Positions 21,611 to 25,780 of a stretch of 49,713 nucleotides of DNA are shown piece by piece. This DNA comes from Dehalococcoidales bacterium (GTDB lineage Bacteria > Chloroflexota > Dehalococcoidia > Dehalococcoidales > UBA5627). The translations under genes were made by a program, and so were the position numbers. The stretch spans positions 1 to 49,713 of the forward strand of contig JAQTUQ010000009.1 in NCBI GenBank assembly GCA_028707255.1, given 5' to 3'. How positions within the stretch are numbered: the stretch's first letter is position 1; every line of letters begins with the position of its first letter. The notes beneath the pieces were generated by a model, which saw only the letters and a program-made list of their open reading frames with translations, was not told the DNA's origin and did no database searches.

Positions 21611-21773
21611 ACAGGCTTAGCAGGTCATTATCGAATAATCAGATGTTATCCGGTCAACCCTATTCTGTATATCATCCAACATAATAGGCATTCCAATTAA
21701 TCCTTATCGGTACCTGTTGGCACTCTTTATGTCATCTCTGATAAAATAACTTCAAATGAAAGGGGGTGCCCTG

Positions 21774-23039
21774 TTGTATCGTAAAACAGTACTGGATAAC
21801 GGATTGAGAATAGTCACAGATAGCATGCCGCAAACGAATTCGGTTTCCATCTGTATCTTTGCCGGAGTCGGTTCGAGGTACGAAAAGGATAAGATTGCCG
21901 GCGTTTCTCATTTTATCGAACACCTGATGTTTCGTGGAACCGAAAAACGTCCGGAATCCAGGTTGATTTCGGAAGCCATCGAGGGTGTCGGAGGTGTATT
22001 AAACGGCGGAACAGATAAAGAGGTCACCGTGTACTGGTGCAAGGTGCCGGCTGCTCACTTTACAAGGGCTGTGGATGTGCTTTCCGATATGCTGCTGAAT
22101 GCGCGTTTCGACCCGGCGGATATGGAAAAGGAGCGCCAAATCATCATCGAAGAAATCAAGATGACACATGATGCTCCCGACCAGAGGGTAAATCACCTGA
22201 TAGACCGGTCTTTGTGGTACGGAAGTCCGCTGGGGAGAGATGTTGCCGGAAGTAAAAAAACGGTATCGGCAATCACACGCGAAGATATCCTTGCATATAT
22301 GAAATTAAGTTATCTGCCGTCCAATGCCGTAGTTGCCGTTGCCGGAAATATCAGTCACGACGAAGTTGTGCAGGCTATTAACGATTACCTTGGCGGTTGG
22401 GATAACAGGCAGCATTTTCACAAGTTTAAAACATACAAGTTGAAAGAATGCCCGCCGGTAAAAATAGAAAAAAGGAAAATAGAGCAGGCGCACCTCTGCC
22501 TGGCGTTGCCCGGTTTATCCAGGTTCGATTCGAAGCGCTATCACCTCGATGTGCTGAATATCATACTGGGAGAGGGTATGAGCAGCCGTCTCTTCACCGA
22601 AGTGCGGGATAAACTGGGGTTGGCTTATACGATTGCCAGTTATGCCGAGCACCTGTCCGATACCGGCTCTTTAATTGTCTATGCCGGAGTGGAGCCTAAA
22701 AAATTATCGACGGCTATTACGGTAATTGCGGAGCAGATGTCTATTTTTAAGGAACAGAAGGTTTCGGATGAGGAGCTTATAAAAGCGAGAGAGATGGCTA
22801 AAGGCAGGCTGCTTTTAAGGATGGAAGAAAACCGCCACGTTGCCAGCTGGCTGGGGACACAGGAGATTCTCAACAACCGCATTCTCACCGTGGATGATGT
22901 AGTTGCTATCATAGATGCGGTTAGCGCCGAAGACATCCGTCAAATCGCTAAAGAATTGATGTTATCAGACCTGCTTAAATTAGCGGTCGTCGGACCGGTT
23001 AACAGGGACGAACCGCTGGAGGGGTTGCTCCGTTTATAG
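21774..23039 (+). CDS. M16 family zinc peptidase
   Basis: 421 residues from a TTG start, preferred because AGGGGGTG is 7 bases before it; an ATG six codons upstream is open but its codons overlap that ribosome site. The inverted zinc motif H-F-I-E-H lies about 46 residues in (residues 46-50), and the third ligand Glu is in GTDKEVTVYW or nearby. DKLGLAYTIASYAEHLSDTGSLIVYAG is the R/Y-type C-terminal block that completes the active site from the second domain. Single-chain M16B enzymes of about 420 residues act as dimers on unfolded peptides in the cytoplasm. No signal peptide is visible. It stands alone. Confidence 0.9.
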   Translation: MYRKTVLDNGLRIVTDSMPQTNSVSICIFAGVGSRYEKDKIAGVSHFIEHLMFRGTEKRPESRLISEAIEGVGGVLNGGTDKEVTVYWCKVPAAHFTRAVDVLSDMLLNARFDPADMEKERQIIIEEIKMTHDAPDQRVNHLIDRSLWYGSPLGRDVAGSKKTVSAITREDILAYMKLSYLPSNAVVAVAGNISHDEVVQAINDYLGGWDNRQHFHKFKTYKLKECPPVKIEKRKIEQAHLCLALPGLSRFDSKRYHLDVLNIILGEGMSSRLFTEVRDKLGLAYTIASYAEHLSDTGSLIVYAGVEPKKLSTAITVIAEQMSIFKEQKVSDEELIKAREMAKGRLLLRMEENRHVASWLGTQEILNNRILTVDDVVAIIDAVSAEDIRQIAKELMLSDLLKLAVVGPVNRDEPLEGLLRL

Positions 23040-23049
23040 TTAAGTTCAG

Positions 23050-23078
23050 CCCTTGACAGTACTGTCAAGGGGTCTTTT
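23050..23078 (+). terminator. Perfect palindrome terminator after the M16 gene
   Basis: CCCTTGACAGT and its exact complement ACTGTCAAGGG form a 22-base perfect palindrome (23050-23071), followed by GTCTTTT. The arm CCCTTGACA is the same as that around the HTH gene start at 15446, so it may also be a protein-binding site. Confidence 0.6.
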
Positions 23079-23093
23079 ATAAAATAAAGTGAT

Positions 23094-23120
23094 GGCGGAC
23101 GGGCCATGCCCGTCCCTACG
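23094..23120 (-). repeat. REP-like hairpin upstream of the transposase
   Basis: On the minus strand: CGTAG, then GGACGGGC-ATG-GCCCGTCC, then GCC (27 bases). Eight-pair stem with three-base loop. It lies 60 bases before the transposase start in opposite orientation to the copy inside the gene. Confidence 0.75.
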
Positions 23121-23180
23121 AATTTTTACATCTTATATAAAATATAACCTCTACTTGATTTATCGTTGTGAGGAAATAGA

Positions 23181-23657
23181 TTGGATTTACCAATACGTAA
23201 AAAGTTAAGGTTAAGGGACTACGATTATTCACAGGGTGGCGTTTATTTCATAACAATATGCACTAAAAACAAAAACCCTATTTTATGGGATTCAAGCGTA
23301 GGGACGACCATTGGTCGTCCGCCCCTGTCACGCATTGGACAAGTTATTGATAGTGCTATTAACAATATTCATACGGTTTATCCAACTGTGGAGATTGATA
23401 AATACGTAATTATGCCAAATCATGTGCATATGCTCATCAGTCTTTCCGACAATGACGGTAGGATATTACAAGTTCCCAAAATCGGTAGGGTTATACAACA
23501 TTTGAAAGGATTTGCCAGCAAGCGAATCGGTTATTCTATTTGGCAATCAAGATACTATGACCACATAATTCGCGATGAAAAAGATTACCTCGCACGTTGG
23601 AAATATATCGATGAGAATCCCTTAAAATGGGAAGATGATGAATTATTCGGGCAATAA
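23181..23657 (+). CDS. REP-associated tyrosine transposase (Y1, IS200-like)
   Basis: 158 residues from a TTG with GAGGAAATA upstream. KLRLRDYDYSQGGVYFITICTKN is the N-terminal signature. The HUH-type metal motif is H81-V-H83 in IMPNHVHMLI. The catalytic Tyr is probably one of those in WQSRYYDHIIRDEKDYLARW, and the family ending KYIDENPLKW is present. These single-domain enzymes bind and cut REP hairpins. The residues SVGTTIGRPPL (39-49) are encoded by a hairpin of the same design as the one upstream. No inverted repeats or second IS gene flank it. Confidence 0.88.
   Translation: MDLPIRKKLRLRDYDYSQGGVYFITICTKNKNPILWDSSVGTTIGRPPLSRIGQVIDSAINNIHTVYPTVEIDKYVIMPNHVHMLISLSDNDGRILQVPKIGRVIQHLKGFASKRIGYSIWQSRYYDHIIRDEKDYLARWKYIDENPLKWEDDELFGQ
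23297..23323 (+). repeat. REP-like hairpin inside the transposase coding sequence
   Basis: CGTAG, then GGACGACC-ATT-GGTCGTCC, then GCC (27 bases). Compared with the upstream copy, two stem positions differ on both arms so that pairing is kept. It encodes residues 39-47 in frame. Confidence 0.75.
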
Positions 23658-23734: not shown

Positions 23735-23769
23735 TAAAAAACAGGCGTGGTTTGTGTGCCACGCCTGTT
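23735..23769 (-). terminator. Intrinsic terminator of groESL
   Basis: AACAGGCGTGG and CCACGCCTGTT form a perfect 11-bp stem with an 8-base loop, with TTTTT following on the minus strand. Confidence 0.88.
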
Positions 23770-23775
23770 TCATCT

Positions 23776-23808: not shown

Positions 23809-25464
<1,656 letters not shown>

Positions 25465-25486: not shown

Positions 25487-25780
25487 CTAACATTTCTTGG
25501 CCAGGATCTGGCTTTCCGTCAAGATCATATAGTCTTGTCCGTCTATCTTGAGTTCTGTCCCGCCGTATTTGGCGTAAACGACGATATCGCCGACCTTGAC
25601 ATCCATGGCTATTCTCTTGCCGTCATCGGTCATCTTGCCGGGTCCGGCGGCAATTACTTCGCCTTCCATCGGTCTTTCTTTTGCGGTATCCGGAAGGACG
25701 ATTCCCCCCTTGGTCATCTCCTCTCTCTCAATCGGTTTGACGACCACGCGGTCAGCTAACGGTTGTAATTTAATTGCCAT
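25487..25780 (-). CDS. groS: Co-chaperonin GroES (Hsp10)
   Basis: 97 residues. [44 protein letters not shown] contains the mobile loop that contacts GroEL. The C-terminal [28 protein letters not shown] is standard. AGGAGG lies before the ATG. It is first in the groES-groEL operon. Confidence 0.98.

Follow-up and report, generated by a model that had tools for sequence, protein, structure and literature searches.

REPs are very common small repeats of bacterial genomes. By what route do they arise, and what keeps them in step with their transposase? A locus from a Dehalococcoidales bacterium raises this question within a single gene. In the window, i.e. the whole stretch of 49,713 nucleotides analysed here (contig JAQTUQ010000009.1), the gene of a REP-associated transposase (RAYT, TnpA-REP) carries a REP hairpin in frame within its own coding sequence. 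Is such a hairpin a chance insertion which the protein happens to tolerate, or is it a site that belongs to the enzyme encoded around it?

The gene (23181..23657, forward strand, stop included) encodes an HUH, single-tyrosine protein of 158 amino acids. GAGGA stands before its TTG start, which lines up with the ATG of the homologue L138, and the gene is the only RAYT copy found in the 1.64-Mb assembly. On one side lies what we take, from its translation, to be a look-alike of M16-type peptidases (21756-23039, +), and on the other side a convergent pair which, likewise judged from the translations, is presumably groEL/groES (23809-25440 and 25487-25780, both on the - strand). Terminator-like inverted repeats are present near the gene at about 23050-23075 and 23740-23771. 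The HUH motif H81-V82-H83 (23421-23429, +) is part of NHVH (N80-H81-V82-H83), which fits the subclass 2.4 motif NH[IFV]H, and the WQ motif of that subclass is present as W121-Q122. The probable catalytic residue is Tyr142 (23604-23606, +); the Tyr motif YIDENP has E for N at the fourth position of the subclass 2.4 motif YIxNNP and otherwise fits. NCBIfam NF047646, the model for REP-associated tyrosine transposases, matches the protein with E 1.4e-21 and 76.9 bits, slightly below the cut-off of 80, and the match to Pfam Y1_Tnp (PF01797) is weak (18.9 bits, E 0.0017; below the 23-bit threshold). An AlphaFold2 model with 56 relatives as input reached a mean pLDDT of 86, and its best fold match (E 5e-9) is 4er8, in which a REP-associated transposase is complexed with a REP hairpin. 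Despite the NF047646 score below cut-off, fold and REP association agree on the identity as RAYT. The product is a single-strand DNA transposase, a TnpA-REP of the kind that Quentin et al. 2018 (PMC6006769) assign to subclass 2.4, which a table in that paper equates with group 4 of Bertels.

Two REP elements are found at the locus. The in-gene REP (23297..23323, +) consists of CGTAG, GGACGACC, ATT, GGTCGTCC and GCC, with GTAG on the coding strand. It makes up codons 39-48, in frame, leaves the 158-aa reading frame unbroken and occupies the loop between beta1 and alphaA, hereafter site A. The upstream REP (23094..23120, -), of the GGC subtype, consists of CGTAG, GGACGGGC, ATG, GCCCGTCC and GCC and ends 60 bases 5' of the TTG at 23181. 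Its GTAG tag faces the in-gene REP with 176 nt in between; whereas a REPIN is an inverted doublet with tags outward, the tags of the window's two REPs point inward. Folded as single-stranded DNA, the upstream and the in-gene REP yield -10.0 and -8.7 kcal/mol, with z of -3.5 and -4.0, respectively. The in-gene stem of 8 pairs starts G-C, G-C, A-T and has a single foot, as compared to subclass 2.4 with its long REPs, the foot of which has three G-C pairs or is double. Even in a looser scan, which accepted a GTAG-tagged hairpin once 7 of its 8 positions paired, these two were the only ones in the 49.7 kb, and GTAG hairpins with 8 perfect pairs were absent from 40 first-order Markov simulations of the window. 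Among 2,000,000 random synonymous recodings of the encoded peptide SVGTTIGRPP, the 8-bp stem survived in 1,324.

The two 27-base elements, one inverted upstream and one in frame, had been described in a sequence-only reading of the window, and we find their plan and positions as given there. That reading also noted that two stem pairs differ between the elements, each on both arms with pairing kept, which is correct, and took this for covariation, which it is not: the difference is that of two standing REP subtypes present throughout the genome, so that the window pair is no evidence specific to the coding copy. Searching the genome by pattern and by stretches, we found 24 exact REP palindromes in these two subtypes (GGACGACC and GGACGGGC) and none with a reversed control pattern across the same genome. 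The coding hairpin is hence a genuine member of a genomic REP family. Several dispersed sites in this genome are inverted doublets with tags outward, made of one ACC-type and one GGC-type REP; in seven such heterotypic doublets (L062, L064, L065, L066, L072, L073 and L074) the centres are about 40 bp apart. Within the order the family is confined to the window's genus, with 23 tagged copies in this genome and four in the congener G602, and none in 39 other genomes of the order. No RAYT was found in the 91% complete genome of G602; the gene was either lost or missed.

The copy at 23297-23323 is the sole genomic REP copy inside a gene. In the surrounding DNA examined, none of the other exact sites of this genome lies within an open reading frame of at least 100 codons. 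This sparing of other genes bears on a first alternative, offered in the text of Quentin et al. (PMC6006769), according to which REPs mobilised by RAYT land anywhere, and those copies persist, without having a function, that lie in permissive surface loops of the RAYT gene, itself non-essential. The location would suit such tolerated insertions, since site A and a further site, B, map to loops in the AlphaFold2 model. That the other genes of the window's genome are free of copies speaks against them, and so do several features of the relatives described below.

Site B, the loop between beta3 and alphaC, is presumed to hold a decayed second REP in the window gene (23457..23480, +), as judged from codon comparison with L138 and L140 and from alignments. 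Codons 93-100 encode GRILQVPK, which aligns gap-free with GRSKTAPT of L138 and GRTLCVPT of L140. In both relatives these codons form an intact hairpin (register GR....APT/VPT), and the window bases there are unpaired. The window gene seems, from these comparisons, to have kept A and to have lost B by substitution, an original absence of B being possible as well.

How general are such hairpins? The nearest relatives by sequence are mostly from Clostridia, with about 38-58% protein identity, and L138 is the sister of the window gene in the tree (support 85), which is weakly resolved (128 columns, 163 rows). The site-A hairpin of relatives sits in the same loop as that of the window gene, mostly in the same frame. 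Domains from the named-genome sample carry hairpins at A and B in 25 cases, at A only in two, at B only in 16 and none in 35. Among P0001 homologues from the same class as the window's genome, a GTAG-tagged in-gene hairpin is very common; it is nearly always at site B, immediately behind the HUH strand, in differing frames and orientations and with stems equal to those of REPs beside the same gene. Place varies among homologues, from A and B to B and C, B only or several at B. L241 and L252 have their in-gene pair at B and at C, a third loop before the WQ motif, in the same outward geometry. Outside the clostridial group, site-B hairpins vary in site and frame, show both tag orientations and include 'double foot' forms. 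These numbers are from a sample in which similarity to P0001 set the ranking; as P0001 contains the insert, genes with a site-A hairpin may be favoured; the HMM seed sequences included site-B inserts. A general RAYT feature the hairpins are not: in L002-L031, from other RAYT subfamilies of the phylum, none was found inside the matched domain.

By the sequence-only reading, a hairpin would be expected at this point in all homologous transposases. In this strict form the expectation fails, as 61 of 164 homologous domains are without an in-gene hairpin and 74 have it only at site B. With so many homologues carrying one hairpin or none, the family can evidently exist without it, and a strict requirement is disfavoured. 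The many genes without a hairpin, like the variable site, frame and orientation at B outside the clostridial group, are what tolerated insertion would predict.

Genes with two in-gene hairpins are ordered in a way which tolerated insertion does not predict. Tags point outward in 44 of 46 distinct sampled genes of this kind, and hairpins that occupy A and B or B and C are 104-178 nt apart. The two stems of one gene resemble each other: their identity is 0.897 in 38 distinct pairs as compared to 0.522 with shuffled partners, and the maximum over 20,000 shuffles was 0.64. Paralogues within the one genome of Chakrabartyella piscis show the same tendency, though the four usable pairs do not suffice for a statistical test (2 of 24 permutations are as good). 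At site A, nine distinct hairpins have 94% of cells paired and a covariation score of 0.42 versus 0.11; none of 500 shuffles reaches it, no slid register comes close, and paired changes occur at three positions. In codons for the same residue, the third base is kept in 82 of 92 cases in hairpins (89%) and in 275 of 537 outside (51%; p = 6e-13), a test made on 7 non-overlapping gene pairs, the other gene-pair counts being not all independent. Finally, in 43 of 62 loci the in-gene stem is identical to the stem of a REP next to that gene, with 3.3 expected by shuffling; here the earlier suggestion that in-gene stems covary with REP copies holds. Orientation, stem matching, paired changes and third-position figures together argue, at the level of sequence, that hairpins and not peptides are conserved, be it by selection or by repeat correction. 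The outward pairing and the third-position conservation weigh against functionless survivors in tolerant loops.

Two further candidates were dismissed. Conservation for the sake of the peptide is rejected, given that genes differ from one another in the frame and the tag orientation of their site-B hairpin. Nor does the HUH segment seem to be a cassette, with A and B as its borders, that passes between genes: identities taken segment by segment are no more incongruent than in a control segment (residual sd 0.078 as compared to 0.091).

The REP content of the relatives' genomes differs widely. In G740 (Bacillota) perfect REPs of its type occur nowhere but within two tandem RAYT copies, as their A and B hairpins, and a single further copy elsewhere has two mismatches. 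(The domain sequences of these tandem copies, L139 and L254, are identical.) About 40 related REP matches are found in Geosporobacter with a looser pattern, and about 168 in an Oscillospiraceae genome. In G741, the genome of L140, about 168 matches belong to a GGGCGAAC / GGACGCAC REP family, with many heterotypic doublets about 58 bp apart. G106 contains 16 exact copies, five at the RAYT locus and 11 elsewhere. None of these 11 lies in a credible gene; three copies overlap open frames which look spurious or are probable upstream extensions. The contrast of G740 with Geosporobacter, the Oscillospiraceae genome and G106 implies that in-gene pairs can be maintained whether or not a dispersed family is present. 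Perfect in-gene pairs in a genome almost free of other REPs of that type also fit poorly with REPs that land anywhere. All considered, we hold tolerated insertion to be possible yet unlikely as the explanation of the in-gene hairpins. In Chakrabartyella piscis (G746, L238-L248) there are about a dozen RAYT copies or fragments, several of which have their own in-gene pair with distinct stems; broken copies in this genome are interrupted near sites A or B.

A second alternative dispenses with selection. At replication, template switching or gene conversion may correct one inverted repeat against the other, and A and B are mutual inverted repeats. Such homogenisation, between the two or with genomic REPs, could yield the A-B match, the site-A covariation, the third-position conservation and the match with flanking REPs. 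Conversion by genomic REPs would also keep hairpins nearly identical in genes that have changed at half of their remaining synonymous sites. However, G740 offers, gene copies aside, almost no such REPs to convert from, the two hairpins of a gene are not always alike (GAAC versus GACC for A and B in L151), and lost hairpins in relatives stay unrepaired. We regard homogenisation as rather improbable overall, but as a serious contender where the matching of stems is concerned.

On balance we lean towards the reading that the in-gene hairpins are built-in cognate sites, kept as nucleic acid rather than as peptide and evolving with the encoded enzyme. In the mainly clostridial genes with which the window gene groups, the coding sequence often holds an inverted REP doublet with GTAG outward, the HUH-coding segment being enclosed between A and B; the hairpins are predicted to serve as recognition sites for the protein in whose gene they lie. 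With a gene that carries the cognate sites of its own product, the pair would be inherited together, and enzyme and site would travel and change together. Dispersed REPs would be offshoots of the same family as the in-gene hairpins. What conserves the hairpins would, we infer, be selection rather than repeat correction. For the window gene the paired arrangement is deduced from relatives, since only one in-gene hairpin survives there. The earlier proposal of a functional recognition hairpin within the gene is thereby sustained in part: nearest homologues carry a paired hairpin with other stems in the same place and the DNA is conserved beyond the peptide, but the hairpin is not always present.

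TnpA-REPs act on one strand only, that with GTAG 5' of the hairpin (PMC8266576). In the doublet, the active strand would then be the coding strand for A and the template strand for B, which is also the situation in a REPIN. By analogy with other TnpA-REPs (PMC8266576), the in-gene hairpin may be bound and nicked and may serve as source or landing site of REP copies. The same strand preference bears on a third alternative, that the hairpin limits expression of its own gene, either by being bound by RAYT in mRNA or gene or by slowing ribosomes or RNA polymerase. Downregulation of RAYT by REP hairpins has been suggested (PMC3733652), and such autoregulation would be in keeping with a hairpin located early in the reading frame, towards its 5' end. 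Yet A alone has the active orientation in the coding strand, and the regular inverted doublet with outward GTAG tags is left unexplained. We consider autoregulation highly improbable.

That REPs occur inside subclass 2.4 genes is known since 2018: in-frame insertions are described as a unique feature of this subclass and as located generally, not absolutely, between HUH and Tyr in the text of Quentin et al. (PMC6006769). The window gene resembles subclass 2.4, as described there, in its HUH/Y1 type, its NHVH and WQ motifs and its in-frame GTAG REP in a loop. It departs from the rule stated there in that its intact REP (codons 39-48) precedes HUH, and only the presumed remnant follows it. In the passages of that paper compared here, we met no description of an outward doublet around the HUH segment or of matching of A with B. 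The in-gene doublet of relatives shares with REPINs or BIMEs (Bertels and Rainey 2011, PMC3116915) the two inverted REPs, an arrangement that is also frequent among the dispersed copies in the window's genome. A REPIN lies outside genes and has a short spacer (PMC3116915), whereas the spacer of the in-gene doublet is coding and mostly 104-178 nt long. Intragenic GTAG REPs and Rickettsia palindromic elements (Di Nocera et al. 2013, PMC3733652) are palindromic repeats read in frame, too, but the examples highlighted there sit in unrelated genes, for instance uvrA or recB, and not in the gene of the transposase itself. With IS200/IS605, which feature subterminal hairpins, the window RAYT shares the HUH/Y1 fold, as seen in the fold matches. 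The hairpins of IS200/IS605 are located at the ends of the element, outside the gene, and these elements are often present in several copies per genome. The window RAYT, in contrast, is single-copy.

If the hairpins are indeed built-in sites, a further step may be considered, to which we give less than even confidence. In one branch of RAYTs the gene would be organised around a REPIN of its own, an outward inverted REP doublet whose spacer is the HUH-coding segment. This doublet would be a heritable and selected component, and each gene would coevolve with its pair and act as the master copy of its REP family. The window gene would be a partly decayed member carried into another phylum. Genes with their own sites, regular geometry and co-changing stems would be natural pairs of enzyme and site, from which a recognition code may be read in sequence. 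Their coding sequence is apparently constrained as DNA hairpin and as protein simultaneously.
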